NCBI GenBank assembly: GCA_009602725.1
Contig: WELB01000133.1
Coordinates: forward strand, 103,890 to 130,125
DNA: 26,236 nucleotides
Source of the DNA: Spirogloea muscicola
Lineage: Eukaryota > Streptophyta > Zygnematophyceae > Spirogloeales > Spirogloeaceae
Direction: 5' to 3'
Under the pieces are notes generated by a model. The model was not told the origin of the DNA and did not search any database. It worked only from the letters and a program-made list of their open reading frames with translations. This document shows, one piece after another, positions 1,986 to 24,400 of the stretch (position 1 is the first letter of the stretch; each line of letters starts with the position of its first letter). Both the position numbers and the translations under genes were made by a program.

Positions 1986-4208
1986 TCACATTCTGCTATC
2001 CTCGTCATCCCCATCCTCTTCGTGATAGTCGTCCTCGTCCCCGACCTCATCCTCGTCCTCGTCCTCGTCACTCTCTGCACTGGATTTCGCCCTTGAGCGG
2101 AGCACGACCCTCTGGCCCTTGGCTTCCGCAATGTCTTGCTCTACTCTGGCAAGGTCTGCAGCCTTACGAGCTGCATCTCGCTTCTCCTTTTCAGCTCGCC
2201 TGTGCTCCAGCTCCACCCTGTGGCAGCAACACCAACATAAAAGTTCTTGGTCACTTGGCCCACTGCAACAGGCTTTCGTAGCAGTCTCCCTAGCAGCAAA
2301 TTACTGGGAGAATGATGAGAGCTTGCCTGTAGCTTGTCTCATACTCAATACCACTCTCATCCACAGCTTGGAAGAACTGGCGCATGCCTGCGCCAGTAAT
2401 CGCTGAAACTCCGACGTTCTTGAGGTTCTTATAGAATTCGTCAAGGACCAGGCAGAGGCTACGGCTCAATTGCGAAGTGTACGATGTGTCGCGCTCAATT
2501 GCAGCCTGGAATGCCTCAAAATCCTGGATCCACTGTAAAATGAATAGGCAGAGAATCTTCTCAGATGTTGTATCCCATTGAGACAGTCATTGCAACTATA
2601 AAGATTCTGACATGCAGATTAGCATGCCAAGCAGGCATCTTCCTTTCCGAAGCCAGAATATCTATCCTGCACTCATGGCCATGTATGGGATCCAAGGGAG
2701 CTCGCTGCACAACTCAGCAGCAATCTGAGAAGCCCTCAACATTACCTCCACGGCAAACTCGTGCTTGGCCACGTCGGTCTTGTTGAAAGCGAGAAGTAGG
2801 GGCAGGCGCGTCTTGTACAGGATGCCGCAGGCGTACAGCATGTTGCTCATGAATGTCACAGGGCTTGTGGACCGAGGTGTGTCCACAACATATGTCACAA
2901 CAGTGGGGAAGGTGGACGCAAAAGCCTCGGTAATAATTGCCCCCGATGCTGACCACGTGAAGATTTCAATCTGGCCAGGCGTGTCCACAAGCACGTAATC
3001 CAGCTCATTGGCCCGCCGCTCCACCAGCTTGACCACCTAAATTCGGCCAGCACCCACGAGGTTGCTGACAAGTTGAGGTCTTGAGTGGAACATTCTATCT
3101 TAAGAATCACAATGCAAGGAGCAGGTCGCCTGAAGAAGGGGGGGGCGGGGGTTGCTCAAGTGAGGGTTACAGATGGACTCTGACTCACTCCGATCTGGTC
3201 CAAACCCAATACTGAGTCCTAGACCGACAAACTTGTACCCCAAACCCCCAGAGCCTACTAGGACAGCTGAGACTTCATGCTTCTATCTGTTGAGGAGCCC
3301 TGAGTTACTGTCTCAAACAGAAAGAGTATTTCTCAAGTCACAGCTTCTTGATGGCTGGCAGACCATTACCAATCCATGTCAGCTTCATTCAAGAGCCCAT
3401 CATCGGATGAGAATGTGAGGTCTTTGCATATCCTGACCATCATTTGGTACATCATCTTACAGCTGAAAAGAAGCAAGCTTGACTTTTACGAAAGCAGGAT
3501 CGAGACTGCCTGCACCGGAGCTGCAAAGTTGCAGCGTCACCAGGGGTTGGCTGGATGTGAGGGTTGACATGATGTGAAGGCAACAGGCGAACCTCATCGA
3601 ACTTGGTGGCGAAGAGGTTGAGCGAGGTGAGGATGCCGCCGTTGGGGCCAAGGTGGTACTCCCTCATGACGTCCTTGTAGCGCACGGTGTCACGGATGTC
3701 GATGTTGGCGGGGTATGGCAGCGAGAGCACCGCAGGGTCGAGGTTGATGACGTACTTGCGCGCCTGCACGGAGGCCAGGTGCGCGTTGAACTGCTGCATG
3801 AGCGTCGTCTTCCCGCTGCCTGCGCGCCAACAACAAGGACAGCCGGCTCAACGATGAGCTCTGCAGCAACTCAGTGGCTGCACCATGACTAAGGCTCAAC
3901 TCTATGACCGAGATAGGGGCTGAGGTAGATGGTGCCAGGCTAGACTGAGATGCAGAAGCGGCGGGGCCCCAGGTACTCGTCGGCTCACCGGCCATGCCGA
4001 TGACGATGACCACGATGGGCCTTCGCCGCTGCTGCCGGGGGCCTGCCTGGTCGCCAGCCGCGGCTGCTGCGCCGCTGCTGGAGGCCACCGCGTGGACCGT
4101 GTCGGCCATCTGCCTCGGCTCGCCGGCGCCCTCCGTGGCATTGCTGCGGCCCGCCGCGTTGGCGGCAGCGGCAGCGGCGGCGGAGGCGGCGACGCCGCTG
4201 TCGGCCAT
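1986..4208 (-). CDS. GPN1: GPN-loop GTPase 1 (XAB1/RPAP4/Npa3 type), 5 exons
   Basis: Exons 4208-3989, 3819-3593, 3036-2746, 2532-2327 and 2217-1986 encode 391 aa, close to the family's usual ~370-400 aa. Visible motifs are the P-loop GMAGSGKTT (residues 71-79), the family-defining GPN loop LGPNGG (GPN at 131-133), the switch DTPGQIE (from 167), NKTD (234-237) and VSAITGAG. The tail is strongly acidic (DEDEDEDE run). GPN1 pairs with GPN3 and is needed for cytoplasmic assembly and nuclear import of RNA polymerase II. The start at 4208 has a good context (GGCCATGG) and opens an Ala-rich N-terminus; an in-frame upstream ATG at 4361 would lie inside the palindrome arm. Intron 4 is GC-AG (AG|GCAAGC). 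The gene's upstream region abuts the palindrome at 4308. Confidence 0.93.
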
Positions 4209-4291
4209 GGCCGCCGCGGATCCAGACAGTCGGACACTAGCTCCTCTACTGCACGTCCAGGCCGTCGGACACTTGCTGTTAGACGGCCACC

Positions 4292-4318
4292 ACCGCCGCC
4301 GCCGCCGCCGCCGCGGCG
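4292..4318. repeat. (CCG)n tract at the left palindrome boundary
   Basis: A run of CCG triplets ends in CCGCGGCGACG and overlaps the outer end of the left arm. The outer end of the right arm (7880-7889) carries the matching CCGCGGCGG, and the loop of the palindrome is also a CCG tract. The repeat lies 84-110 bp upstream of the GPN1 start codon. Confidence 0.85.
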
Positions 4319-4387
4319 ACGAAAGCGGCTGCTGGCGGTGGGGGCAGTGGGGACGCCTCACAGTCGGGGCAACAAGGCAACAAGTAG
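4308..4387 (+). pseudogene. Truncated 3' fragment of the SMP-domain gene
   Basis: Read on the plus strand, this segment ends ...QSGQQGNK followed by TAG at 4385-4387. It matches the last ~26 codons of the intact minus-strand gene at 7810-8001, with two changed residues (GD.S here against GG.P there). Everything upstream of the arm boundary at 4308 is unrelated (CCG repeat and GPN1 5' flank), so the start codon and the conserved core are missing. A TGTAA motif, the usual green-algal poly(A) signal, follows at 4525-4529, mirroring the one behind the intact gene. Confidence 0.75.
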
Positions 4388-5483
4388 GATCAACGTTAGC
4401 AGCGCCGCGCCTACATGGTGAGTCACAGGCTCGCTTGTGTCAAAGCGGCTGCGCAGGCCTTGAGGCGGGGCAGCTTGCTTGCTTGCCGATGTTGCTGCCT
4501 CTGCAACCCGCCGACAAGCAAAGCTGTAACATCAAAAGTCTGCAACCATGCTTTGAGCTGCCCAAGCCAAATTCTGAGTAGAGTACCTTGCCATGATGAC
4601 GCAGGACTCAAGTTGAATATCGGCGAGGAAATTATGGCGTGGTGGCAAGGAGTGGTTTTGATCTGGAGACGAAGTATGCCGCTTTCAGTGCCTCTGCTGT
4701 AGCCTTCGGTTTTGAGGGTGTTCACAGGGAGAGGCAACAGTGCGTTGCCTGCCCCTGTAGAGCAACGCTCTTCCTCTAGCCTGAGCTAGATATATCGTCT
4801 GCTGTACTTGAGTTGGAATATGGAAGAATATAATCAGCGAAGCGCTCAATGGCTCAAGTGCTCAAGTGCTCAATGTCCAGGGACCTATTGCTTCAGTCGT
4901 CAGGACTATGCATTGATGTCGCTTTGAATTTCATGCGCACCGCGCGCCTTCTCTCTCTCTCTCTCACTCATTATGCAATGATGTCGTTCCTGCCGCTTGT
5001 TACTCCCAAGTCACACGACATAATATGAGGCCCCCACTATCTAATCTAGGGGAACAGGCTACATCATTGTAATCATCTCAAGCGTACTTCCACAGAACAG
5101 ATATAATCCCTTATCGTTCAGAGCACTTCAGTGAAGCGATGTCACTTGGAAGGGTACGCATATGAGCATGTAGACAGGCAACTTTGGTGGCTGGCAAGCC
5201 ATGCTATATCCGCTCCTCGTTCGCTAGCCCGGCATCTGCAGAGGCCGCTACCACACCCGCTGCTGTTGCCACGAAGGCAGGCCTTCATTGAAGAAAGAAG
5301 AACCTTTGTTTGTGCTGGCCAATCCTCCCCGCACTCAGGAAAAAGGCTGGGACGCGTATACTAGTGCATCCATCAGATAGTCTTGCTTTTACTGAAACAG
5401 ACGTCACACGCTCACGGTCGAGCGCGGACGATGTCCTTCCTTAATTGGGCGACGTCTTTCCGCCGGCTAGCTACCCAGACTTG

Positions 5484-5908
5484 CATCTCCTGACTAGAGG
5501 TTACTGAGCGTTCCCTGGCTGATGTCTTAGTCCCAGTCCTTCGCACTCCGGCTCCTTCAGACCATGTCAGTCCTGTGGGCTGGCCTTTCCCAGCCACCAG
5601 TCAATCTGGCCGCGCTTTCTTTGACTCTCATCTCCTGACTGGAGGTCACTGAGCGTTCCCTGGCTGATGTCTTTGTCCGAGTCCTTCGCACTCCGGCTCC
5701 TTCAGACCATGTCCATTCCTGTGGGCTGGCCTTCCCAGCCACCAGTCAATCTGGCCGCGCTTTCTTTGACTCTCATCTCCTGACTGGAGGTTACTGAGCG
5801 TTCCCTGGCTGATGACTTAGTCCTAGTCCTTCGTACTCCGGCTCCTTCAGACCTTGTCCGTTCCTTTGGGCTGGCCTTTCCCAGACACCAGTCAATCTGG
5901 CCGCGCTT
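5484..5908 (+). repeat. Three tandem ~145-bp units (left arm)
   Basis: Units start at 5484, 5629 and 5774, each beginning CATCTCCTGACT, giving a 145-bp period. Shared blocks include GAGCGTTCCCTGGCTGATG, CTCCGGCTCCTTCAGACC, GGGCTGGCC.TTCCCAG and CAGTCAATCTGGCCGCGCTT. The third unit is shorter and more diverged. A related block, GGGCTGGCCTTCACAGCC, occurs in the dispersed repeat near 1282. Confidence 0.9.
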
Positions 5909-6065
5909 CCTGCTTCCTGAGGTGGCTGTCCCGAAGACCGACGGACAGTGGAGTGGTGGATATAAAGTTCCTTGTTGAATACAAAGCCCTCCTAACACAC
6001 TTCTGTTGATACTCTCGAGCTGCAGCATTGCCGCCGCAGCGCCTCCAGCGCCACGGCGCGAGCTT

Positions 6066-6071
<6 letters not shown>

Positions 6072-6096
<25 letters not shown>

Positions 6097-6124
6097 GGCG
6101 TTTGGCGCAGCTGCTGGCGCTGGC
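6072..6124. repeat. Palindrome loop with (CCG)n tract
   Basis: The 53-bp spacer between the arms consists of CCG triplets (to about 6095), then GCGGCGTTTGGCGCAG and a short GC-rich stretch. Pairing of the arms stops at 6071/6125. With the arms folded this would be the hairpin loop. Confidence 0.9.
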
Positions 6125-6288
6125 CGGCGCAAGCTCGCGCCGTGGCGCTGGAGGCGCTGCGGCGGCAATGCTGCAGCTCGAGAGTATCAACAGAAGTGTG
6201 TTAGGAGGGCTTTGTAATCAACAAGGAACTTTGTATCCACCACTCCACTGTCCGTCGGTCTTCGGGACAGCCACCTCAGGAAGCAGGA

Positions 6289-6713
6289 AGCGCGGCCAGA
6301 TTGACTGGTGGCTGGGAAAGGCCAGCCCAAAAGAACGGACAAGGTCTGAAGGAGCCGTAGTACGAAGGACTAGGACTAAGACATCAGCCAGGGAACGCTC
6401 AGTAACCTCCAGTCAGGAGATGAGAGTCAAAGAAAGCGCGGCCAGATTGACTGGTGGCTGGGAAAGGCCAGCCCACAGGAATGGACATGGTCTGAAGGAG
6501 CCGGAGTGCGAAGGACTCGGACAAAGACATCAGCCAGGGAACGCTCAGTGACCTCCAGTCAGGAGATGAGAGTCAAAGAAAGCGCGGCCAGATTGACTGG
6601 TGGCTGGGAAAGGCCAGCCCACAGGACTGACATGGTCTGAAGGAGCCGGAGTGCGAAGGACTGGGACTAAGACATCAGCCAGGGAACGCTCAGTAACCTC
6701 TAGTCAGGAGATG
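6289..6713 (-). repeat. Three tandem ~145-bp units (right arm)
   Basis: Mirror of the units at 5484-5908, in reverse order and orientation: about 6569-6713, 6423-6568 and 6289-6422. The middle unit is one base longer than its left-arm partner (CTTTCCC against CTTCCC). Confidence 0.88.
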
Positions 6714-7667
6714 CAAGTCTGAGTAGCTAGCCGGCGGAAAGACGTCGCCCAATTAAGGAAGGACATCGTCCGCGCTCGACCGTGAGCGTGTGACGTCTGT
6801 TTCAGTAAAAGCAAGACTATCTGATGGATGCACTAGTATACGCGTCCCAGCCTTTTTCCTGAGTGCGGGGAGGATTGGCCAGCACAAACAAAGGTTCTTC
6901 TTTCTTCAATGAAGGCCTGCCTTCGTGGCAACAGCAGCGGGTGTGGTAGCGGCCTCTGCAGATGCCGGGCTAGCGAACGAGGAGCGGATATAGCATGGCT
7001 TGCCAGCCACCAAAGTTGCCTGTCTACATGCTCATATGCGTACCCTTCCAAGTGACATCGCTTCACTGAAGTGCTCTGAACGATAAGGGATTATATCTGT
7101 TCTGTGGAAGTACGCTTGAGATGATTACAATGATGTAGCCTGTTCCCCTAGATTAGATAGTGGGGGCCTCATATTATGTCGTGTGACTTGGGAGTAACAA
7201 GCGGCAGGAACGACATCATTGCATAATGAGTGAGAGAGAGAGAGAGAAGGCGCGCGGTGCGCATGAAATTCAAAGCGACATCAATGCATAGTCCTGACGA
7301 CTGAAGCAATAGGTCCCTGGACATTGAGCACTTGAGCACTTGAGCCATTGAGCGCTTCGCTGATTATATTCTTCCATATTCCAACTCAAGTACAGCAGAC
7401 GATATATCTAGCTCAGGCTAGAGGAAGAGCGTTGCTCTCCAGGGGCAGGCAACGCACTGTTGCCTCTCCCTGTGAACACCCTCAAAACCGAAGGCTACAG
7501 CAGAGGCACTGAAAGCGGCATACTTCGTCTCCAGATCAAAACCACTCCTTGCCACCACGCCATAATTTCCTCGCCGATATTCAACTTGAGTCCTGCGTCA
7601 TCATGGCAAGGTACTCTACTCAGAATTTGGCTTGGGCAGCTCAAAGCATGGTTGCAGACTTTTGATG

Positions 7668-7672
7668 TTACA
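7668..7672 (-). terminator. TGTAA poly(A) signal candidate for the SMP gene
   Basis: TGTAA on the minus strand, about 138 nt past the TAG at 7810-7812. TGTAA is the common polyadenylation signal of green algae. No transcript evidence is available. Confidence 0.4.
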
Positions 7673-7809
7673 GCTTTGCTTGTCGGCGGGTTGCAGAGGC
7701 AGCAACATCGGCAAGCAAGCAAGCTGCCCCGCCTCAAGGCCTGCGCAGCCGCTTTGACACAAGCGAGCCTGTGACTCACCATGTAGGCGCGGCGCTGCTA
7801 ACGTTGATC

Positions 7810-8001
7810 CTACTTGTTGCCTTGTTGCCCCGACTGTGGGGCGCCCCCACTGCCCCCACCGCCAGCAGCCGCTTTCGTCGCCGCGGCGGACTGCGCACGG
7901 GCGGCGAAGCCACCTGAGCTCATGTCGCCACCGCCCTTGGCAGAGCTTGCTTGAATCCGCGACGCGTCTGCGCCCGTCATTGGGGTACTTCCCTTCGGCA
8001 T
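7810..8001 (-). CDS. Small SMP (seed maturation protein)-domain protein
   Basis: A single-exon frame of 63 aa starting at the ATG at 8001, in context CACCATGCC. The core TGADASRIQ..SAK..GD.SSG.FAARAQSAA resembles the short SMP-domain proteins of plants, algae and fungi (Pfam SMP), which typically read D-A-x-R-I-Q-S ... F-x-A-R-A-Q-S-A-A. The tail is Gly/Gln-rich low complexity. In plants SMP proteins are linked to late embryogenesis and desiccation, but the molecular role of the short forms is unclear. An in-frame upstream ATG at 8028 would add nine residues; I prefer 8001 because family members begin shortly before this core. The palindrome boundary at 7889 cuts the gene at codon 38, so its last ~26 codons and 3' flank are duplicated in inverted orientation upstream of GPN1. 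Confidence 0.6.
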   Translation of the reverse strand: MPKGSTPMTGADASRIQASSAKGGGDMSSGGFAARAQSAAATKAAAGGGGSGGAPQSGQQGNK

Positions 8002-9387
8002 GGTGCTATGTCTCAGTCTCGCTGCCAAGAAAGCGTCCGCTAGCCTGGTCAGCGCCGCCGCCGCCGCGGCCGCCGCCGCTGGTCCCGGCGCTCAGCTCGC
8101 TGGTCAGTCGACGCGCAGCGTGGTGGAGCTGCGTCGGCTGAGCGGAGCGCGGCGGCCGCGCGGCGTTGGCCGTGGCTGCGGCGATGGCGACCGCATGCTC
8201 GGCGGCTGCATGCATGCTGGTCATGCCAAGCCCGGACGGACATGCATGGCGGGAGCGGCGGCGCCGTTACGCCGCCGTTAGCGCGCTGCCGTTTCGGCTG
8301 GCGGATGGACGAGCCGAGAGGGACGGCGCCATCGAAGACGGCGAACCGGCAAACCAGTAGCAAACGACCACGCAAATCTAATTGCAGAAGTCCGACGCAA
8401 AGCTCGATCAGGACCAGCGCGACAGTACAAGGCAGAAGGACTTAGAGGAGAGTGATGGCTTCACTGAGGAGCGGTAAGTGTGATTGGCTACTACTGAATG
8501 TTCATTTGCAAAAGACACAATGTAATTGTCAAAGAGCAGGTGCTGAAAAGACAAATTGCTAAGACCAGCGAGAGGAGGTTTTAGTAAACGAGGCGGGTGA
8601 CCTCATTGTGCCCCCTTCTTCGCTGTGATAAGAACCTACTATGCGCTCTTCTCGCACTTGCCGTTTAAGTTCCCCCTAGCTTTGTTAGAGCCACCGTTCT
8701 TTCAGCAAAGCTGGAAAAGCTAGGTCCATGCCTTTAGGCTCTGCGCACCCAGCTTGCTCTTTTCTGGATTGGGTAGCAAGGCCAGCAGCTCTTGCACACC
8801 GCGGCCTCATTCAACCCGCAAAGTCAGCTTGACCAAACCGATTGCTCCAAAAAATTCTTGATCTAAAAGTTAGTAGAAGTACAGGGCGTACATGGCACAT
8901 GACAACCTGTCTTCTTTGACACAAGCGCCTCAAAGACTAGGACCAACCAGGATTCCACCATCATGAAACTGCAAGGCCGAAGAGGTGCTCGTTCATCCAC
9001 TTGACTCACGTCCAGCCAGGCTGCAGTCTTTACAAGTACTTTCAACTGGGTGGAGCATGCTCCTTCATGCAGAGTCATATATGACACAAAGCAGTTCAGA
9101 TCTTTGCACTGGTGCAAATCTGATTATCCTCATCAGACAGAGTGTCGTGAATTATTGGCATTGCATACCAGATTGAGATGCATACTCGATTGTATTTGCA
9201 GTGTTGCCAAAGGCTGGGTGCCCTGCTTCCCAGCCCTGAAAGTCGATCTTCAGCACTGTGTTCATGCTGGTTCTGGCAGCAGTCAGCAGTGCGCCGGAAT
9301 CAAAGAATCCTACTTATTGCTTGTACACATACAGCAGGGGTTAAGGTCCAGGCACATCCCGTACAGATCCCAACACACCTGCCATGC
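8002..9387. other. Intergenic region, no supported gene
   Basis: 8002-8350 is GC-rich with CCG-type runs (8057-8080) and is probably the promoter and 5' UTR side of the SMP gene. Frames there read as Ala/Arg low complexity. From 8450 composition drops to near 50% GC. A segment at 8388-8475 is flanked by an AG and a GGTAAGT and has an acidic, coding-looking frame, but no partner exon was found. TGTAA on the minus strand (9030-9034) could be the poly(A) signal of the cyclase gene, 354 nt past its stop. Confidence 0.5.
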
Positions 9388-12300
9388 CTACGCATGCAGG
9401 TGGAAAGCTGATGGCAGAAGAGCAAGCAAGCCAGTAGCTGCCAGAGCCTCAGTTGCCTTCACAGACATTAGGTGCCGGTTTTCGGAGCTCTCAAGACCCA
9501 AGTAGGTTCTGATCAAACCGGCCCCGCTCGGGTCGCTGGCCAAGTGCTTTACCAGGCGAAAGCGCAGTGAGTTGGGGGCGACCAAAAATGTCATAAAGGC
9601 AAACCACATCAAGTCCATGGATGAAAGGTTGGTGGAGAGGAATCCTTTCCAGAGCCTACACCATCAGCGAGAGCAACAATTCATAAGGAGTGTGTCTATA
9701 CTAATACATACATCAACTTCACTCATCACAAATGAGAAATGCCAAAGCGACTGATCCGACCTGCAATCATGTAATTGCAGGCAGTCCAGCTATATGAGGC
9801 TGTGACACGAATCTTGGCTGTTGTCCATCACAAAATGCTACGAAGCAAGTAAAACAGATTGACCGATGGTACTGATTGGCTTCTTAACCTTTCAGGCAGT
9901 CGAAAGAAGGTGTGGAAGAAGATGCGAGTATCAGACAGGTCAAGCTGCAGCAGAAGCTCCAACCCAAAGAGCATGAAAGCACGTTGTCTTCTTCTCTCTT
10001 GCGACCACAAGGCGTCCCAGGCTGCAAAGAAAGGAGGGCCTTCACTCAGCTATCTCTGACTTCTGCATACTTCTTCTTCAGGAGTTATCGGAGGCATGAA
10101 GCTTGCATCTCAGAAGTACACATAACCCCATTGCCTATCCAGGCACAGGCATGATCTGGTCCGAGCAAAATACAGAAACCTTGATAGAGAGGGCGAATGG
10201 ATGACCTTGGAGTGCTGCATTGTGAGACTGAGGCATCAATTCTGAACTGTGCAATGCCCCTTTTTCTGGTTGTAGAGCCTTGGCAATGGCAGCAGCATAA
10301 TGCGGAGCTTCTGTCAAAGATCGGGCAATTGAGTAACCTACAAGTTGACAACACACATATTGTCATGAAATGTCATCACTACTGTTATTGGTAATAAGAG
10401 AGTTAGTGTCTATCAACTTATCCATCAAGAGCACTGCTCCTCTCACTGATCTTCCTGTGCCGTAGCATCACGTGGAAGCACTTGCAAGAGCTGAATAAGC
10501 ACTAAGTAGCACCCCAGCATAGCATAGCTTGACATAAGTACTGGACTCTTGTGTACCTGTTGCTGGATGCACCATGCTTGCAGCTGCCCCATAGCCGAGG
10601 TGCCTTTGCTTGGTGTCAGGAATTGCACCGCCTACAGGGATGTACGACCACTCCTGCCATCCAAAATAAGCTACAGCAAGTATCACATGCAAGGAAAAAA
10701 CCCAGCTGCCGAGGACAAGAAATCCAAAGGACTTGGAGGACTACACTATATCTGCCTTCCAGGATCGCAGTGGCTTCTCTTGGCACAAGAAAGTAAGCAA
10801 GTGATGGATTAGAGGAGATGACTGGGAGCCTCTTGCACGGAGTTGCCTGTCACCTCTTCATGGACTTTCTTGACTCGAACTTTCAATGCCTGTAGCCGTT
10901 TGTGGAGGCGAGCCTTGAGCAGCTCAAATGGCATTGCCGGCCTACGTGCAAGACAAGTCTCCTGCACTTCTTTTGACAGGTGTCAGACGCCACAGCTTCG
11001 GCAGCAGTAGCATCCGTAGATGCCTACTTGAATGGTCATCATCATCTAGCTGAGCACAAGAGAGAGGACTAATGGAGCCACTAACAACATTCGTAGTAAC
11101 AGGCAAGTCTCTGCAGCTTGTGTGTATGGCAACTTCAGAAGCACTTGCCTCGAAGAAGATTCTTGTGGAGGTGACTGGCATAGCGTACAAAAAAGTAGGT
11201 GCATCTCTGAAGAGGCCCTCACTGGCATCCCCTTCTGAGCCAGGCAAGCCTGCCGTTCTGTAGTCCATGAAGACCATCAAGGATGGATCACAGGCATAAT
11301 TCTCAACCTGCAGCACAGTCCAGTGTGAGCTCCTGTGAGTTGCACAAGGGATTCCAGGCACTTTTTGTGGACAGGCAGTGACATCAAATGTCAATGCAAG
11401 CAGCTGCAAGCTTATCGTATCAGCACTGGCTACATTACAGACAGAAGAGTAGTCAGTCAATCTGCAAATGTGACTTCATAGTGTAAACTATAGTAGTAGA
11501 TGCCCACGTTCATTCTGTGCTACCTTACCTCCACCTCCATGCCGTAAGCTGTTTGAACACCAACTCCTCTCCCAGCAGCCTGGTAGGTCAAGAACTTCCC
11601 TGACGCTGCTCCAGCTGCAACAGTCACAAGCCTGGAAAGTACCAGGCTGATATTATTTACAGACTCAGACCAAGTGGAACTCGTTGCTTCAGATACACGG
11701 TGACAAGGGGTACATGCAAACGTCAATTTGCAGATACACAGGTAAGTACCGATGGTTGCAAGTCAATCAACACATACCTGCTCTGGATCTTCCAGCCATT
11801 TTGGCAGTGGACAGTATTCCTGTGAGGCGAGGGCTCTGTAATCTCTTCAACTTGGCTGTCTAAGTAGAGGACACCGGCTTCTTCACACCTGGCATTATGT
11901 GTTCATCGAAAAACTCATTCGGAAGCCACCATTTTTTCCATCACATCGCCTAACAGATTTTACTGTCTAGGAGTGTCAGAGGTTGTTGTACGTGTCACAA
12001 GGACAAGAAAAAGTAGTGGTAAGTGATGTATGATGAGGCTGTGCTGTGTACAGAAGGAAGCTGTGATTTTGCAAACACAAAACTCCCTAGCCCCAAGAGT
12101 TGTACAATGAAGCCAGGCCACATCGTGGACTCCGCACGGGACAAGTGCTACTAACCTCTGAAGCAGCTTCTGCAGAAGCAGGTGCCGTCCAACCCTACCA
12201 TAAGGCCGACCTACTAGTGTCGGCTCGTCGTGATCTATGTATATGGCTGTGTCCCGCCATGTCTGCTCTAAGCAGTCTTCAAGGCCAATAGCTGCACACA

Positions 12301-13194
12301 TCCTTTCAAAGGGTGTCAAATTTGCAAGTGCGTCCACCTGCTCTTTCGCTCTTTGGAAGGCCCGTCCGCTATTGGGACGAGCCTTATCTTGTAGTCACCT
12401 TGAAATTCGTCAACCCACACGCCGTAGTTGTTGACGAATGGCGAGTCGGGGCCGATTAGACCAACACTAAGTCCTAGTTTTGCAGACTCTGCAGCCAGGC
12501 ATAACCCTGCAGGTCCGCACCCGACGATGACAAGGTCCACATTTGCATCTCTTCCCAGAGCTGGAAGCTGCGAATTTGAAAGATTGAGAAGGAGAAGCGA
12601 TACTGCAATTAGATGCAAACACCCTGGCTAGCTGCTCGGTACAAATCATCAGCCATTTTTCGTCTATACAAGGCGAATGTATGGCTAGGTGTGCCACGCT
12701 ACATCGTGCGTAAATGCAGCTCATGTAGCTTCTCAGAGGCACTGTCTAGTGACTAAGGACTACGGTGGCACCTTGTCAGCAATCTTCGGGCAGTCGGCTA
12801 CAGGCTTCGAAGCCTGAAGCTGCACATGCTCTAGCTCCGTCCCCCCCGCTTTCAGATAGTCCTGCTCGTCTGCAAAGTCTTCTCGAGACAGGGCAACTGT
12901 AGTGGTCTCGTGCAGCGCGCCAACGGCCTTCACCAGCAACCTGGAGGCTGCTGCAGGCCATCTCCTCCTCCCTCTAGCGGCCTTTCCACTGAGCGCTGCT
13001 GCTCGGTCGGTATATCCAGATTGCCGGCAGCCTCCACGGCCAGGCTCGACAGAGGAGCTCCGTCCGGCCAGGCAATCGGCTCGGCAAGCTCCAGACTCTC
13101 GAGAGTGCGCGGGAAGCTCCCTCTGGCAGCCCGCGGCGATTTCAGGCTGACAGCGCCCGGCTAGCTTTACGCCGGTCGCCAATGCGGCTGCCAT
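9388..13194 (-). CDS. LCYE: Lycopene epsilon-cyclase, chloroplast precursor, 11 exons
   Basis: Exons 13194-12772, 12567-12399, 12291-12156, 11888-11778, 11631-11529, 11307-11149, 10961-10854, 10653-10557, 10337-10206, 10021-9889 and 9655-9388 give 612 aa. The enzyme closes an epsilon-ionone ring on lycopene, committing carotenoids to alpha-carotene and lutein, in plastid membranes. The first ~95 residues are Ala/Arg/Ser-rich with few acids, as in a transit peptide. EDFADEQDYLKAGG follows (the plant and algal epsilon-cyclase signature, which separates it from beta-cyclase), then the FAD/NAD motif VIVGCGPAGL (to residue ~163), NNYGVWVDEF (187-196), YGRVGRHLL, FLYAMP (353-358), FFEETCL, EWSYIPVGG (404 on) and GAAASMVHPATGYS. 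The intron after FFE is GC-AG (GAG|GCAAGT). The first 5' splice site (AAG|GTGCCA) is weak but phase-consistent. It is transcribed away from TTC27 across a shared 770-bp spacer. Confidence 0.93.
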
Positions 13195-13932
13195 ATGCGG
13201 AGACGTCTCCGAGCTACGCCGCGCGCTTCCTCGGCTTGAGTGACCTGGTCACGCCATGCAGTCCATCGCCACCGCTAGCTCGGCCGCGCCGGCTGCGCGG
13301 CCGAGGGCTCCACGCCAGCGCAGGCGCGGCGATGGCCCGCTCCAGGCGGCGGCGGCGGCGGCNGGGCACGGGCAAGGCGGGCGCGGCGCCGGCACTGGCG
13401 CTGGCCCGGTGGAGTGGGAGAAGCTGCTTCCGGGGGCGGGGGGCCCGTCCTCCCCTCCCCGGACCCGGCTCATGGCTGTTACCGGCGCCTGCCCCTCCTG
13501 GTCGCTACCCCCCTCCTCCCGTGGCCGACCTGGCTAGCGAGGCCCCCCTGCTGATCCCCTACGCGCTAACCGCGATAACCGGCCTCGGCGCTTCCGGTAA
13601 ACCTGCATCAACCCACGGTGTAGGCGGTTAGCCGGCTCACCCCCACACTCTGCCGGTACGAGCTCCGCGGAGAATCAGGTTAGCTGGCTCATCCGGACCC
13701 ACTGGTTTGAATATGGTCAGAGATCGGCTAATCTCAGTAGCTTTGGCAGCCGACGTGCCAGGCACGTGCGAGAGAATCGAAGGAAAGCCCGTGGATTGGT
13801 CGCATGCCAGCCACGTAGGCTGCCGGCAGCTAACGATCGGACCCCGAATACCGTCGTCGTTAAGGTGTCGTTGGGAGGGTTTGGGGTTCGGGGGAACGCA
13901 GTCTCCCAGGTGCCTGCCACAGGCGCCACAGT

Positions 13933-13964
<32 letters not shown>
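13195..13964. promoter_or_regulatory. Divergent promoter region between LCYE and TTC27
   Basis: The two start codons are 770 bp apart and point away from each other, so this stretch should hold both promoters and 5' UTRs. A palindromic G-box core CACGTG lies at 13763-13768, a motif known from light-regulated plant genes. A 16-bp direct repeat, GGTTAGCYGGCTCAYC, occurs at 13626-13641 and 13678-13693. A CGG tract with one ambiguous base (N, near 13363) lies at 13346-13363, and another CGG tract touches the TTC27 start codon. Functional use of these sites is inference. Confidence 0.55.
13933..13964 (+). repeat. (CGG)n tract directly before the TTC27 start codon
   Basis: About ten CGG triplets run up to GCG ATG at 13965. 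On the TTC27 transcript this would be the very end of the 5' UTR and could form stable GC structure. In the open frame it would read poly-Ala, so an upstream start cannot be excluded. Confidence 0.8.
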
Positions 13965-13965
<1 letters not shown>

Positions 13966-16900
13966 TGGAGGCCAGCGCAACAATGGCCGCGGACGGGGAG
14001 CCGGCGCCGTGGTGGCGTGTGGAGCACGAGCTGCTCCTGACGTCTCTGTCGGCGGCGAGGGGCAGCTCAGCCTGCAGCACGGCCGACGCCGCCAGCGCCG
14101 ACGAGCTCGCACAGGCTGCGGAGGCCGTCGTGGCGCGCATCCAGGCCGGCCAGTTGGCCGAGGCGTTGAGCTGCCGCTCGGCCATCCGCTTCCTGCTGGA
14201 CGCCGAGGCGGGCGCCGAGGCCGCCGCGAGTAGCCCGGCGTGCTACTTCGAGCTCATTCTGGCCAGCGCGGGAGCCGCCGCCGCGGACGGCGGCTGGCGC
14301 GGCGTGCTTGCGCTGGCGCTCGGGGCCGCGGCGCTGGGAGTCTTCGTGCAGGCCAACGTCACGGGGTCAGCTGTCTCTCCTTCCGCAGCAGCCTTCTTCC
14401 CCTGGTCAAGCAGCTTACTTCATGCAAAGATCAACTTACTCTGGAGGACACGACGTCCTGAGCACTGCCCGCCGATGGTGAATCACCAGCGACGTGCTGT
14501 GCTTTGCATCATATTCACCGCTTGTCTCTCCACGCTCGACTTGGCCAGGAACCTTGGTGTGCTAGCAAGTCATACTCGCCATGCTGGCCGCACTTCAGGC
14601 CCCCCTCAAGCTTCATGCAGTCAGGCAGAGGCCTGATGACTGCACAGAGCCTGAAAATAGCTGGCATGAGCTGCACCTTCTCCTCTGATCACGTGCAGGC
14701 CCCAGGTTGCGGCGCCGGTCCCCCCGCCAGTGGCCTTCGGTCACCTGCCGGCAGGCGACGGCAGCAGCGATGCAGCAGTCAGTGACGATCCTTGGGATTC
14801 CTGGGCCCGGGGCCAGCTCATGATTGATGGGGCCGACCTCATCGGCAAGCCGGCAGTGCTCCAGGTAGCGCCCTCTACAACTCCGGCAATTACGATGCCT
14901 GGTAGTACATCAACAGTTTTGCAGCATCACCCCTGCACAGGCCCGGCATGCGGAACAGGACAAAGCCAGGCTGCTGTGTGCAGTAACTTAAGTCAACGCC
15001 TCACCTGAAAGGCATGTACATTACTGAGAGCTGGCGTTGCCAACCTGCGCAGCATCTTGTGCTTGCACGGAACCTGCTCGTCCTGCCACCCGGCAGTGCC
15101 CCAGGACTAGCCACTGCTCCTTGGTGGGCGGCGCGGGCGCTGGCTGTCCACCAGCGCAGCCTGGCAGAGCGCTCACCTACACTTCACGTGCAGCTGGAGC
15201 TGGCCCTGAGTCAGGCGGTGTTCAACTGTGGATCCTGGATGCTGCTTCTGTCTAAACGGGAGAGCCACATGGTCGAGGCCAAGCCTACGTCCTGGACCGT
15301 GTCGGAGCGCCAGGCCAGAGTGGTCGCCGCTGCTGTGCGCCTGGAGGCGGGGCTGGCCAAGGAGGCCTACGGCCTGTCTGATGCGGCCAGGTACGTCCTG
15401 CTGGTAGTTACTTTGTGCTTTGTGGCACTGTTGATATGAAAGAAACTCAATCCTAGAATACTAGACACGAGCAACTTGTGCCTAATAGGAGAAACCCTAC
15501 TATGACAGATATCTATACCCTAAGCCTTCAACCCTGTCAGTATATAGCCCATAAAGTTGCATGGTAAAGAGCCTGACTATGACGCATTGATCCTGACTTC
15601 GAATTTACACCTAGAGCTTGCTAAGCCAAAGTTTAGAACTTAGCAGCCCTAATGTACAGCTATGCTAGGCTGGACGTGGACGCAGGCGGCAGGCTTTGAC
15701 GTGGTCCGCCATCCTGGCTTGGGCAGACTGTGCTTCCACGAGGCGGCAGAGGAGTGCGGCTTGTCAGTCAGCCTGTCGGGTGTCCTAGGATACCGCACCA
15801 AGCACCAGGTGGGAGGATCTTATGATATGCCAGCCAGCTGCACTTGTGCACTTATTTACCTTTGAAGAGGAATATGGGACTTAGTACAGATTTTGCTGAT
15901 TAGATCACTTGATAGCTTCTCAGGGAGGTGGCTCTGGTGGCAGGCAGATCCCACGGCCCAGATGGTCCTTCAGGCGCTAATCAAGGATGGCAAGGAGCTC
16001 GATCTTTCTGATAGCGAGCCTGAGTTAGCGGGGGCTGATGACGACGACAGTGGCAGGTTGACGGACGGAGTCGGACGCAGGGAGCATGAACGAGGGGATG
16101 ATGTGAAAGCAAGTGCTCAGGCAGTAGATGAAGGCGAGAGGGACATCTTGCTAGCCCCTCTCCTCGTCGACGAAGACAAGAGCAAGGTCCAATCATCTGG
16201 AAGAGCGTCCCTCAACAGCATCGAGCAGGCCATTGTCCTAGCTCTGAGCCTGGACGTCCGGCGAAATAACCCCAACGACGAGCTCCGGGGTCAGTGTCGG
16301 AGCCAGCTCATGCATCTTGATGGTCCTACTGACTTTCAAGGACCTGAAGAGTTGAAATTGTGCATGATCCTCGTGACTCACGCTGTGCAGGCTGGCAAAT
16401 GGCACCGTACATTGAGGCTGTGAGCGCTCAGGGCCACTTGCGGCCCATGGTAAGATGAGCATTTTTTGTCTAAAACCAACTGACATAATTTGGGCTGATG
16501 GTAATTTAGCTGCAAATACTGGACTCATACCAGCTGTTGGGGCAGATCTCAGACGGCTTCCATCGCTAGACTGCAGGTGCGGGCTTCCTGTGAACTCCTC
16601 CGCATTCGATGGGAGCGCTCGCGGTCCAGGACCCGGCAGAGGGCTCTGAGCACGATGGAGCGCTTGGTAATACATCACAGTCGACATTGTCAAAGCAGCC
16701 TCCCCACTACCTATTTGAGGCTGTTGTAGTAAATGTTGCAGGCGTGAGCCTAGCTCTTTTATGTGGCGCACAGAAAATTGCTCGGTAGTACTCTTACAGA
16801 TACAAGTGTGGTCTTTCAGGTCACAGATATGCAGGATGGGAATGCGAGAGTAGCCGAGCGTATGCGCTATGCATTCTGCGTGTGGTTCCCTACCTGGGCT

Positions 16901-19900
16901 GCCCTTCAAAAGTATGGTTGACTAAATTCCATATGCATAAGCATGGGTTCATTGACGTTCTTCGATAACTATAGTGTCACTCCTGTGCTGATCTTGCTCC
17001 ACAAGGTGTGAGATCTGTTGTTGCTTGAGCTTGTCATTGCCCCCCGATTTTGGGGCTGACCGTATCTGCTCAATGAGGTTGGCATCTCGTTTGCAGAGAA
17101 TATGGAGAATTTCTCCTGTCCGTAGGACTTGTTGGAGAGGCTCAGCTGCTCTTTGAGAAGCTGGAACTCTGGGATAATCTCATTGAATGCTACAGGTGGT
17201 TCACATGGTCCATGCAGCCGTAATGCAATTCGAGCCCACATGAGCCCACATTTTGTTGTGCACAGTAGTTGTGAATTGCCCAAGTGCTTATTGGTCTGCT
17301 CGTTGGCACAACTGATCCTTGTTCACGTTCGCTCCCTCGTTTGCAGACTATTAGGCAAGAGACCAGCAGCTATCCAGCTGGTCCAGGAGCGCTTGAAAGC
17401 TCAACCTGACGACCCACGCCTCTGGTCAGAAGCACTTTTCTTCCTGCACTGCTTTGGCTTACCATTCCATACGCTAGAGATCGTTGAGATCATCTTAGCA
17501 TCTGCTCTTGTTGAAGAGGATGCAGTGCTTTGTGGAGACTTCTATCTGCATATCTCATGGGCTGTGAAAGCGACCCAGGGGTATATTGCAGCTGCTGAGT
17601 GAAGTACATAGAATATTGTGTTCGGCACCAATGTAAATCTTCTTCTTTGCAACTTGTTCAGGTGCTCACTGGGGGATCTGACCTTTGACGATGACTGCTA
17701 CAACAAAGCCTGGGAGGTCTCAGGCCAGCGCTATGCTAGAGCACATGTAAGGGAATGTACCCAATGCAGTTGCATCTGCAGGTTGGTTGCTGGTAGTTGT
17801 TGGCATAGGTGCTTGATTTCAGCTTGCCAATGTCTTGAAGGTGCTACTGTTGAGCAGGAAAAGCTTTGGGGTATCTCATCATGTAGCAATGGCACCACTC
17901 TGTGCATGTATAGCGATCCTTGGCCCGCTCTGCAACTGGCCGCGGAGACTTTCGGAAAGCAGTGAGCCACTGGTATGTCTGACAGCCAGTCTTTATTATG
18001 GCCAGTCACTGTTATCCAAGCACGTCACTATGATGATTGTCCAAATAAACGTAGCAGCATGCGTAATGTACAGGCAAAGTCACCTTACCCCACTGCCAAT
18101 CTCGTCCACTTAGCTTGTCTGAATTTTGCAACCTTGTACTGGCTGAGTTCTACAATAAATTTTGATTCAAAATCAAGGGCTGCAAGTTGGCTGCTGATGC
18201 CTACAAGTGCTTGTTCCTGACAGGGAGACAGCATTGGCTCTGAATACTTTGCACCCAGACGGATGGTTTTCTTTGGGGTATGCCGCCATCCAGGTGAGAT
18301 AGCCTGAGTGAATGCTTGGCAGATAGTAAGTCTCAGCAAGGCATATGGTATGCATCAGTCTGTTCATTGGCTTGGTGAAGTGGTCTTGTTGCCGAGCTCC
18401 CAAATGCAATGTCCTTCCTTGCGAAGATGCAGAGACATAGTGGATTGTGCTAAGTGCAGCTCATATGCAGGCATTCATTTCAATGTAAATGCTGATGTCC
18501 CAGCCACTAGCCTCAAGGGCTAATTTGAGTGCAGATACAATTCTCCATGCAGGTAGAAGATGCTGACAAAGCTTTGAATGCTTTCACTCGAAGCATACAG
18601 CTTGACCCAGACAACGGGGAGACTTGGAACAACGTTGCTGCCTTGTGAGCAGGGGCATCAAGGGTCTCTGTCTGCAGTCATGGGGGCCATATGCTGCAAT
18701 CCGAATGCCAGATACATGTGTTTTGGACCTTTTGGTAGCATCAAGCTGCCATGTTTGCATCGTACAAGTTGGGCATAAAGTTAGACTCACTCAGAGGCTA
18801 CCGCTCTTAGCAACCACCTCAGGGGTCTGCACACTTAGTTTTCGCCAAGAAATATGCACTGCACAACAACTTATTCAACCCATCTGTGCATAGCAGTTGC
18901 TTGGGCTCCCAGATTGTCCTGATGCAATGTGATGGTGGCTGTGCAGGAACATACACAAGAAGCGGAGCAAGGAGGCATTCAAAGCTCTACAAGAGGCCCT
19001 GAAGTACAAGTAAGTGAAGCAGCAATATGGAGCAACAAGCCTGCTTCTTGTTTGCCAGTAGCTTTTTAAGGCTGCATCACTCTCTACTTTGCACCTTGTG
19101 CTGCATCTTATTGCATCACCAAGTCTATGCAGGCATGATAGCTGGCAAATGTGGGACAACTTTGTCAGAGTCGCCCTTGACGTGAAAAGCTTTGAGCAGG
19201 TCCGTGTAGTCTGCTTATGATAGTGCAACTTGAAGAGAAAACTGCAATGCTTATGTCTTATTGTGTCATAGTACAACAATTTGGCACTTAGCTTGTTCAG
19301 CACGTGTAGATGGCAATCTCTCTTATGCTTCTGTACTCTGACCACTCACGCACAAGCTTGGCGAGACTGAGAGCCACATGGTGCACCTAAGCACGTAACA
19401 TAGCTTCCTCATGCTGCAGGCCTTGAACGGGATGGACAAGATCCTGGAGTTGACCAACAACAAGCAGTTGGACATGGCAGCCTTGGAGCACCTAATACGT
19501 GAAATCGAACGGCACCATACGCCAGCAACTCCTGACTCTACGCCAGCTGAGGCAGACGCCTGTTCAGCAAACAGCGAGGAAGAAGAAGAAAGCATGGCTG
19601 TGGGCATGCAAGCCCATGCAGAGTCTGTTGCACGAGAGTGCGAGTCACAAGAACACGAGCCAGAACAAACAGTGGGTGTTGAGAAAGACAGAGGGCAATC
19701 AAAGGAGAAGTGTCCTCCTCTCTTTCAAAGGCAACTCCAAAAACTGCTGGAGAAAGTGAGGCTGATGCCTTCTGCCAAGTCGTCTTAAGCATTTGCTTTG
19801 ATTGGCCTCCCTCTTGAAGCTCACTCATTTCCTAGTGGTTTTTCACCTCGTCCCGGATTAGATGAAGCTAGCACCAATCTCGCCAGATATTGACAATTTG

Positions 19901-20794
19901 CGCTCGTCTTGCAATGAGAGCAGGTGGCAGCCGGTGGCGCAGGGGGGAACCAGATCTGGTCCTTGCAAGGGAGGTTCTTTGAAGCCGTCGGTCAACATGC
20001 CAGGGCTACAGAATGCTTCCAGAAACAAATCCGTGCTCTGCAGGTAGATATCCTGTCGACAGCTGAATTTCGATTTGTTGGGAAATGAAGAGCAATGATG
20101 TTTCTGGCTGCAGCTGGGCTAGGATTACCACAGCACAGATCATACTTGTTGTTGCAGTTGCCGCCGATTGATGCGGCAGCTACTATATTAACATCTATTA
20201 CTGTAACATGGTCAACAGGGGTCTAACTGGCAGAAGAGCAAAGACACATTCGAAGCATTCGCGACGGCATCTCTCCAGCTTTGCTGCAGCTATTTGAGGT
20301 CTGCCGAGCAGAATATGTTGGAATCTCCGAAGGCAGGTGCCCGAGAATTGTCAGCAGCCAGGATGCACCTTCGCAATGTCTTGAAGCAGGTCTGACCCTC
20401 CTATGCTAAGGACTCTTATTGCATGGCTTTCTCTGCCTTCGATCATCTATGTGCACTAAGTTCTCTTTGCATGTGGTCGTCACAAGGCAGAATCAATCGT
20501 TTCTAAGACTGCGTAGCCTTTGGTAGTCAGGCCATCATATGGTACATGCTCTTTCTCCTTGATTCCCATGTCGAAAGCAGCAAACCATAGACTGAGGCAA
20601 CAGCAAAGGCAAAGTGGCTAGAGCATCTGTTCTGAACTTTGTCTCTCCAGATCCCTCCTAAGCATCTCGTGACTTCAACTTGGATGTGATTCTGACAGGG
20701 AGGAGACTTTGCCGAGTTGGATGTGTACAAGCACTTGGCAGATTGCCTGCAGAGGGTGCAATTGATGGAACTGTCAGGAGGACAGGAGGCCTAG
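13965..20794 (+). CDS. TTC27: TPR protein of the TTC27/EMW1 family, 20 exons
   Basis: Exons 13965-14365, 14699-14864, 15053-15390, 15727-15808, 15944-16289, 16391-16449, 16577-16666, 16820-16911, 17097-17195, 17347-17424, 17662-17746, 17914-17972, 18224-18293, 18553-18644, 18947-19009, 19133-19199, 19420-19755, 19924-20043, 20219-20389 and 20699-20794 encode 969 aa in one frame. Family signatures include VQANVTG, SGVLGYRTKHQ, LLFEKLELWDNLIECY, SLGDLTFDDDCYNKAWE, the TPRs LHPDGWFSLGYAAIQ and LDPDNGETWNNVAAL, and KHDSWQMWDNF. TPRs span roughly residues 584-730. Acidic low-complexity inserts lie in exon 5 (after KELDLSDSEPE) and exon 17 (SEEEEES), making it longer than animal TTC27 (~840 aa). 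The yeast homologue Emw1 is essential for cell-wall maintenance; TTC27 is linked to HSP90-dependent assembly. Start chosen at the first ATG after the CGG tract. Confidence 0.92.
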
Positions 20795-21494
20795 GTTCAC
20801 CTTGCTTTTGATGGCAAACATCCTGCTCAGATTGTCTAGGAGCTGAGCACGACCTCGTGTACACGGCTCTCTGTAACAGAAGGCCTGCTGCTCGTGACGG
20901 GTTGTGGGTTTTTGTCAAGGTGGTTAACACAAAAGTTGGACATAGCCACTCCTTAGAAAGACTGTGGCAAGCTCTCAACAAAGCAAGACAGTTGGACAAT
21001 CTTCTGATTGATTGAATGTGCTTGCCGGAAGCACCAGGTATTACATGAGGCCAGACGCAAATGACAAAGACCCATATGCACACACATGCATTGCCATGTG
21101 AGTGCAGGTTCTTGGTGCAACACTTGACCACTCGTGTAAGCCTCATGCACAGTCCCGTCCATCATCTCGTCCAAGGGAGCTTATCAAAGTCGTCACTGCC
21201 AGTGTCTTCATTGATATCCGGAGATAGTTGCTATGGAATAGTTCCAATCTGATCAGACAGGCCAGTGGAATAAGCAGCTCGGGGCCAGCGGCTGTACAAA
21301 GCCACTCTTTCTTGGCCCTTGGCCAAAAAAACCAAGCAATGAATGGCTAACTAAAATCTGACTGGAGTTAGGCGAGAATGTCCCGGCGACAGTTTCTGCA
21401 CCTCCTGAGAGTAGATCAAGTGGTGCCTCAAGAGTCCTTCACTGAAAGTCTTTTGATATATCTCTAACCAGCCTACCTATCCAAGCAGCAGCGC
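20795..21494. other. Convergent intergenic spacer
   Basis: Downstream of both TTC27 (plus) and the histidine kinase (minus). It should contain both 3' UTRs. TGTAA occurs on the plus strand at 20872-20876 (for TTC27) and on the minus strand at 21041-21045 (possibly for the kinase, ~450 nt past its stop). Nothing else is recognisable. Confidence 0.6.
20872..20876 (+). terminator. TGTAA poly(A) signal candidate for TTC27
   Basis: TGTAA lies 78 nt after the TAG stop at 20792-20794, a typical position and sequence for a green-algal polyadenylation signal. Confidence 0.55.
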
Positions 21495-24400
21495 CTAAAC
21501 AGACTGGCACGTCTGAAGCGTAACAGAGATGCCTGTGTTACTAAGAGTTGCATCAATTGTTTCTACAAGCTGGCTGAAAGAGAAGGGTTTGGAGACATAT
21601 TCATCCATTCCTGCCGATAAGCAGACTTCACGGAAGGACCCAATGACATGGGAGGTAAGGCCTGCACAGAAGTCATAAGCAACACTTTCATGTGTCATTG
21701 GGATTGCGCTTCTGATGCAGTAAAGCCTCAACAAGTTACTTCTCCCGATGTTTTGGCTCGAGAATCAATACTGACAGCATCAGTAAGACAACCTCAATTG
21801 ATCATAGCACGGCAATGACAAGGACAGTCAGACTGATTGTCACCATGTGGCAGGCATACGAGCAAGGTTGGGTATCCCACCAATAACAGGCAAATGAGGC
21901 AAGCCCAGAGTTTTCTCGCGTGCGCGAATGGCCTTCACAGTCTCCAGCCCATCCATCAATGGCATCTGGCATGGAAGCTCCAGAAAGAGCGCAGTGTGAG
22001 TATGGTTTTCTGGGACCTACTAGTACCATCGGTTTTGTTTTGGTAGTTCAGAATTGTGCAACCTCCAGAAGTAAACTGATCACTCCAGCAAGATCAAAGT
22101 ATCAAGCATTGCTTAAGACTTGCCATTCTCAGTTTCTACTTCTCTCAGCACCTTACCTGCTACTCCCAACGTCATTAGCTACCATTCATAACCAGGACTA
22201 GTAATATGATCAAGCAGACAATTGCCAACACTGTGTCAGGTCGCACGGACCTGGACATCCAGGAGGAGGAGATCGTAGTGATCAGGCTGCTCGACCAATC
22301 TGTCGAGGACCTCAAGCCCGTTCCAGACAGCGTCAGTGTGAATGCCACGTTTCTCGAGGAACCGGCTGGCCACTTTCTGATTCACTGCGTTGTCATCTGC
22401 CAAGAGGATGCGCAGTCCCTGCTTCTCGCCGTCACTGCTTGTCGCTGCCTCCTTGGCCTGGCTGCCTGAGTTCACAGAGCTTGTCACCTCTTGTTGACCA
22501 TATGACTTGCTACTTGGCCAGGTCACTGTGCGGCCAAGCTTGACAACACCCTCTTCACCACTCGTGCTCGCATGTTGGCAGCTGGAAGATCTCTCTTGTT
22601 CTCCGCCAGCTTCCAGCGCAGGCCTCACATTGTCAAGTGGCTGACAGACATGTTGACAGCTAGCAGCTGTCACCTTCTGGCTCATTGACGAGCTCTGCAG
22701 CTCCTCGTCCAGCTGCTCCTCAGCCGGCGGGCCTAGGAAGAGCTGCCGACAGCTGCGACTCCTGAGCTCCGGCTCTGCTTGCAGTGAGCCTTCGGGCCCC
22801 TCCTCAGCAGCGGCAGCCATTGGAGGCGTGGTGGGCCTCGGGCTGACATCTGATGGATTCGTGGACTCAAGTCCAGAACTGGCCCATGGTGGACCTGGTG
22901 GCTTGGACGTGGTGTGCCGGAGCTCCGCCACCGGGACCGGATGCACCTTCTGGCTGCTTGGCAGAGCGCCGGCTTTTGCGGGCGCCGCTTGGCCAGCTGC
23001 CTCCTGCAACGTTGTGGTGAAGCGGAACACGCTGCCTTCCCCAGGCTTGCTCTCAATCCAGATCCTCCCTCCCATCATCTCCACAAGCCTGCAAGGTGAT
23101 CATGCTGGTGCACTTAGATGAGTAGCTGAAGAGCAGAGAGACTGATTACATAAAATTACGTGGATCTGGCTGGCAGACATTTATTGCGCACTGCCATGGG
23201 GGCTTGGAAGTGCAGACCTTTGGCAGATGGCGAGGCCAAGGCCAGAGCCGCCATACTTGCGACTGTGGGACGTGTCGGCCTGCTCAAAGCTGTTGAAGAT
23301 GGAGGACAGCTTCTCCTCCGGTACGCCTGCCGCAGCAGCTTGCCAAGCAGAGCTGACATTGGCTTTCCGTGGTAGCATTGCCGGCAGAAGCAGAGTGAGT
23401 ACGAACATTGTCTGACTGCCCTTCAGACGTCTATTGCTCCTCACCTATTCCAGTGTCGATGATGGAGAACTCCAGGTGGACGGCATCAGCAGTGCCCTCC
23501 GGCGAGCTGGGCATGGCGTCTGCAAACTTGCTAACTAGATCTCCAGTGATGAATGGTCTGTGGTCGCTTGTTGCAGTGACGACGTCAGCCGGCACTCGGA
23601 GGACCTCCACTCGCACTGACCCCTTCTGCGTGAACTTGATTGCATTACCCACCAGGTTCACCTGCCGAGACAGCAGGCAATCGGTTGCACAGAACACTTA
23701 GTGTTGCTTGTGTGACCCTTATTGTCTGTACTGTGTTAGTAGTCCCAAGCATCACAAAATCATCAGCATTGACAAGATAACCACTATGCTGCCACTCGCT
23801 TGTAGCTTGCTGCGATCAAGGCCCACCAGGCATTGGCGCAGGCGGCCCGGGTCGCCTACGACATGGGCAGGGACGTCCTTGCCAACATGCCACTGCATGT
23901 CCAGGCCCTTGGCGAGCGCCTTGCTGACGAGCATGCGCATGGAGCCGTCGAGCAGGTCCTCGAGGTTGAAGCACAGCCGCTCAATGACGAGCTTCCCAGC
24001 CTCGATGCGGCTGATGTCCAGCACGTCGTTCACAACCGTGAGCAAGTGATCAGCGGCCTGCGATACAGTGTCCAGGTGGTCCCGCTGCATCTCTGTCAGC
24101 GGCCCGTCCAGCGCCAGCACCGTCATCCCAATGATGCCGTGGATCGGCGTCCTGCGCGGACCCACGACACCAAGTTGAGGTAGAAGCCAAGGAGCGGGCT
24201 GCTAGCTGCTTGAGTTACACCTGGATGCAATGGCAAGGTGTTAGCTCAACCGCAATAGGTGAAGTGCATGTAGCATCAAACGCGACACAGTGCAATCGCT
24301 GATCGCTGTTCTCAGCATCGTCAGCTGCCGTTGACAACCTCGAAGAGGGCCCAAGGCACAAGGCTCGCCTAAGCGTGACGCACCGTATCTCGTGGCTCAT

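Follow-up and report, generated by a model that had tools for sequence, protein, structure and literature searches.

Between the genes for the GTPase GPN1 and for a seed maturation protein (SMP) of Spirogloea muscicola lies a large, near-perfect palindrome, and it raises two questions: how such a structure could arise in an algal nuclear locus, and whether it is real or a product of the assembly. We analysed a stretch of 26,236 nucleotides that contains it, here called the window (C133:103890-130125; the assembly has 153.1 Mb in 471 contigs). The full alignment of the two arms covers 1765 columns with 10 mismatches and one indel of a single base, equal to 99.4% identity; at such a length, chance similarity is no issue. 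The alignment bears out a sequence-only reading of the window, which had described a large near-perfect palindrome with arms of about 1.76 kb, about a dozen mismatches and one indel. The same reading had named a 53-bp CCG loop: its length is indeed 53 nt and it opens with a GCC run (6068-6094), but CCG triplets make up only about half of the loop, the remainder being GC-rich in other ways. At its outer end the arm falls within a CCG-rich tract, and this boundary is soft by a few bases. The features of the locus, in window coordinates, are:

1986..4208, minus strand: gene of the GPN-loop GTPase GPN1, its conserved exon frames free of stops
4295..4318, plus strand: GCC tract at the outer junction, ending in GCGGCG; the last 11 bases (4308-4318) are CCGCCGCGGCG, common to the SMP exon
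4308..6071, plus strand: left arm, an inverted copy of the right arm and, on the assembly as given, the derived one; its non-tract part starts at 4319
4308..4387, plus strand: truncated 3' coding end of SMP in the left arm, with two amino-acid changes; in frame upstream there is a stop and no ATG
5447..5917, plus strand: dispersed-repeat array of three units of about 145 bp, left-arm copy; absent at this place from C107 and C208
6067..6099, plus strand: GCC tract at the inner junction, the second copy, also ending in GCGGCG; CGCCG (6067-6071) is common to the right arm
6072..6124, no strand: loop of 53 nt, the SMP-GPN1 spacer including the GCC tract, ancestral on the assembly as given
6125..7889, minus strand: right arm, 3' end of the SMP gene and its downstream region, ancestral on the assembly as given
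6280..6749, minus strand: dispersed-repeat array, right-arm copy with the same units of about 145 bp
7810..8001, minus strand: gene for an SMP-like protein (seed maturation protein) of 63 aa, in a single exon
7879..7889, minus strand: microhomology CCGCCGCGGCG within the SMP coding exon; 11 of 11 bases in the C107b exon, 9 in C208

The gene names given by the sequence-only reading, GPN1 and SMP, hold: ATP_bind_1 matches two GPN1 exon frames (2.2e-31 and 4e-21) and the SMP profile (PF04927) matches with an E-value of 0.0011 and 19.7 bits, which falls just under the Pfam gathering cut-off of 22 bits, and we therefore label the gene SMP-like. GPN1 lies downstream of SMP on the same minus strand, and the outer end of the right arm falls within the SMP coding exon. 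As there are no stops in its conserved exon frames, this copy of GPN1 is not visibly broken (splice sites are only partly modelled). An Rfam search of the window at gathering cut-offs gave no matches.

The ancestral state of the locus

The whole window has two syntenic partners, C107:327382-350200 and C208:101300-126906. GPN1 (window 2000-4290) is 89% identical to C107 and 86% identical to C208, and both of these adjoin their SMP genes; C107 carries two in tandem (C107a and C107b, L009:4184-5713), one of which has a diverged protein. In C107 and C208 the order is spacer, CGG tract and GPN1 leader, without the insert, and the empty pre-event site is present at both of the two syntenic loci. In C107, about 80 bases lie between the end of the CGG tract and the GPN1 start; in the window, the distance from the outer tract (end at 4318) to the GPN1 start codon is 110 bp. 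At the GPN1 start of C208 there are a single N and a short loss.

Homology was followed across the arm boundaries with a query that consisted of SMP, right arm and loop (window 8600-6050, in SMP sense). At the outer boundary of the right arm, inside the SMP exon, homology to C107a, C107b and C208 runs across, and at its inner boundary homology to C107b and C208 runs on into the loop. The left arm is without such continuity: it has the GPN1 leader on one side and the GCC tract of the loop on the other. Both syntenic outgroups being without the insert, the assembly as given shows an inserted left arm, with right arm and loop in the ancestral state. The palindrome is neither symmetrical nor free-standing: one arm is the original and the other is a copy. 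The donor segment from which the insert was copied is close by, at a distance of 53 bp.

The 11 differences between the arms (left-arm positions 4353, 4358, 4758, 5475, 5731 (the indel), 5815, 5838, 5864, 5885, 5963 and 5979) were polarised against C107a, C107b, C208, 11 copies of the dispersed repeat and sister subrepeats. Nine could be polarised: six are derived in the left arm (4353, 4358, 5475, 5731, 5815 and 5885) and three in the right arm (4758, 5838 and 5864), with 5963 and 5979 not polarisable. At 4758 the base of the left arm is that of C107b and C208, and C107a has a third base. The two changes to SMP coding sequence, 4353 and 4358, are both derived in the truncated left copy and both alter amino acids.

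The dispersed-repeat array is present in both arms and at the same place in neither homeolog; thus, most simply, the repeat arrived before the inverted copy was made. The repeat is also contained in an inverted repeat on C317 (L013:1874-3014; arms of 524 bp, 95% identical and 96 bp apart), which is possibly a full foldback-like element. In 20 other stretches, which were picked by homology or adjacency and not at random, no further inverted arms with a spacer between them exceeded 524 bp, under a filter that would miss palindromes with no spacer.

Three syntenic copies were present at all three loci tested (the window, the C18 locus and the C163 locus; 76-94% identity, depending on the piece), and 153 Mb is 3 x 51 Mb. 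From synteny, the genome looks triplicated, and the three copies may reflect a hybrid polyploid or a mixed culture. A search for the Rubisco large subunit, by which plastid types were to be counted as a mixed-culture test, had no matches, with plastid contigs presumably absent from the data; the control was positive in 5 of 14 genomes.

Junctions and a proposed template switch

In the assembly as it stands, microhomology is present at both junctions, with 11 bp for the outer and 5 bp for the inner one (CGCCG, common to the right-arm end and the GCC tract). The insert starts after CCGCCGCGGCG, and the same 11 bases directly precede the copied part in the SMP exon. This exon-side match predates the event, as C107b has all 11 bases and C208 has nine. 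On the tract side, GCGGCG is found in both tract copies of the window and in neither the C107 nor the C208 tract, and this match is therefore known from this locus only. GCC runs lie on both sides of the insert (4295-4312 and 6068-6094), as would follow from a strand that departed from the tract, copied the SMP region and came back into the tract; being a repeat tract, they do not amount to a clean target-site duplication.

The best explanation, and one we consider reasonably probable, is that two template switches took place at the GCC tract during replication or break repair. The starting order would have been GPN1, GCC tract, spacer, SMP downstream region and SMP. In replication, or when a break at the GCC tract was being repaired, the strand under synthesis would have detached at ...CCGCCGCGGCG; it would have annealed to the identical 11 bases of the SMP coding exon, which lie on the opposite strand at a distance of about 1.8 kb. 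About 1.75 kb would then have been copied back towards the tract, until the strand re-entered it via the 5-base match CGCCG and synthesis continued. This would yield part of SMP and its downstream region as an inverted copy between two GCC tracts, with the original across the 53-base loop. We infer the template-switch mechanism with its enzymes, a single event and a low age; one point against a single event followed by even mutation is that it does not predict the uneven spread of the arm differences.

Real insert, assembly artefact or gene conversion

The insert is, in our judgement, likely to be real. It is unlikely, though some risk remains, that the GCC tract contained a gap into which right-arm sequence, which might stem from a second haplotype, was put a second time in inverted orientation, by gap filling or by a chimeric join; a heterozygous sample may have been the source of such a fill. 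Runs of 3971 and 3935 Ns directly flank the window and perhaps are gaps, and the window together with L009-L028 (160,530 letters) contains 13 N stretches (7 single Ns). At 13363 of the window, a single N ends a CGG tract. The first 121 positions of the window, straight after the 3971-N run, are all A, and in L025 a run of 84 A likewise adjoins an N run: these A runs are possibly gap-edge artefacts or real poly-A tails.

The draft also contains two SMP fragments that probably are false copies caused by gap-fill errors, to judge from their sequence: one at C18 (L011:4347-5037, 691 bp) and one at C163 (L012:4607-5211, 605 bp). Both start in CGG tracts, end on a single N and have no differences to C107a outside the CGG tract (two and one inside, respectively). 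The homeologs (C11 and C26 for C18, C52 and C10 for C163) hold about 630-780 bp of other sequence at this place, which is alike within each homeolog pair and is without SMP beyond CGG-tract matches. The single-N ends and the other sequence in the homeologs led us to reject the two fragments as further insertions entered via triplet repeats. In addition, a stretch of 319 bp that runs up to a single N is 100% identical between C163 (L012) and C52 (L031:1-320), in a match that averages 94% as a whole, and this is probably another cross-fill. A wrong join might likewise leave microhomology at a junction.

Several observations argue against an artefact at the palindrome. The left arm has 11 differences in 1765 columns versus none in the two false copies (Fisher p = 0.004, 60 tract bases per false copy being left out of the count), and it contains no N. 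The overlaps at the junctions, 11 and 5 bp, are below the usual minima of assemblers. At the three sites that have changed in the right arm the left arm is ancestral, which errors in a copied sequence are unlikely to produce. Searches of the assembly with window 2000-4290 and 7900-26236 gave no further near-identical copy of either, and an unmerged haplotype is therefore unlikely. A hairpin read with a missed adapter was rejected, as the loop is genomic DNA with homologs and the outer flank of one arm is unlike that of the other. The sequence-only reading had held that the mismatches speak against an artefact and are not proof, and this caution was right, given the probable false repeat-mediated fills elsewhere in the draft.

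An older inverted duplication, the arms of which have been kept alike by arm-to-arm gene conversion, we regard as distinctly improbable. In the noncoding stretch from SMP to the dispersed repeat, the right arm differs from C107b by 16.2% and from C208 by 15.9%, whereas the two arms differ from each other at one of 1046 columns: the event is thus either young or the arms were homogenised. In favour of conversion, the differences sit towards the arm ends: 4359-5474 contains only one (4758), and against a uniform distribution the mean distance to the nearest arm edge (p = 0.003), the longest gap (p = 0.038) and a KS test (p = 0.017) all indicate clustering, as does the comparison of the one difference in the 1046 noncoding columns with the 10 in the other 719 (Fisher p = 0.0008), significance being nominal throughout as the tests were picked after the pattern had been seen. 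The uneven spread described by the sequence-only reading is thus confirmed, at least nominally. It fits conversion in the mid-arms and also fits consensus difficulty in the inner repeat units: six of the 11 differences fall in the dispersed-repeat array, where consensus trouble is an alternative. Each arm, moreover, has private point changes, and there is no sign of age. Identical runs between the arms reach 716 bp and could not be phased if short reads were used, which makes the assignment of differences to arms uncertain. Of the two causes that had been offered from the sequence, recent duplication or ongoing conversion, the duplication is supported, with an old right arm and an inverted insert on the left; ongoing arm-to-arm conversion is no more than possible.

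Consequences and comparison with known systems

If two template switches at the GCC tract created the insert, the consequence is most likely a 1.75-kb addition just upstream of GPN1 that carries an SMP pseudogene fragment and has no selected function. Through the insert, the DNA that used to lie upstream of the GPN1 start is now about 1.75 kb further off, and its inverted copy faces SMP. Most likely the insert is selectively neutral, helped by the two further GPN1-SMP loci. We give little credence to the idea that the inverted copy is a working hairpin or antisense locus that silences SMP, with GPN1 having acquired a new 1.75-kb upstream region: transcripts that cross the loop, or that start from the inverted copy upstream of GPN1, would pair with SMP mRNA. 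If true, a single copying error would have given rise to a new silencing locus, for which the two undisturbed homeologs would serve as controls within the same genome. Provided that the insert is real, the birth of a large palindrome can be read here, with donor, switch points, triplet repeat and two empty sites in one genome. A genome that has syntenic copies in threes can provide its own ancestral states, and the probable false SMP copies that entered via CGG tracts are a practical warning for users of the assembly.

Foldback transposons have the shape of long inverted repeats, and the overall shape is alike here, but the arms are a gene and its flank and not the ends of a mobile element. 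That the palindrome is a foldback-type transposon or a giant MITE, as long inverted repeats around a short loop and the dispersed repeat in their inner parts (inverted elsewhere, in the 524-bp arms of C317) might suggest, is extremely unlikely: the arm ends lie inside an SMP exon and the GCC tract, no other copy of the whole unit was present among at least 70 matches (40 of 3438 candidates scored), and the reading is refuted by one arm being SMP exon and flank with syntenic homologs. Triplet repeats such as the one at this locus form secondary structure, and a triplet repeat of this kind would be the entry point here. A literature search on long palindromes in nuclear genomes of green algae gave mostly organelle work among the matches listed; we do not claim that they are absent from print.

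Excerpts of PMC10766186 describe how ODIRA makes inverted triplications. The likeness is a strand switch at short inverted repeats that results in long palindromic junctions (same excerpts), but ODIRA was rejected as it needs an inverted triplication with two palindromic junctions and here there is a single inverted extra copy. PMC7954356, also in excerpt, is a further paper in the comparison with known mechanisms. According to excerpts of PMC11724301, inverted insertions at yeast breaks are mostly of about 5-34 bp. The FoSTeS/MMBIR class, as described in excerpts of PMC2621351 and PMC8421209, has templated inverted insertions with a nearby donor and microhomology at the junctions, and the insert is alike in this; it differs in that 1.75 kb were inserted, in an algal nuclear locus. 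In kind, the locus appears to be a copying accident of a type already known, and a clean case of it.
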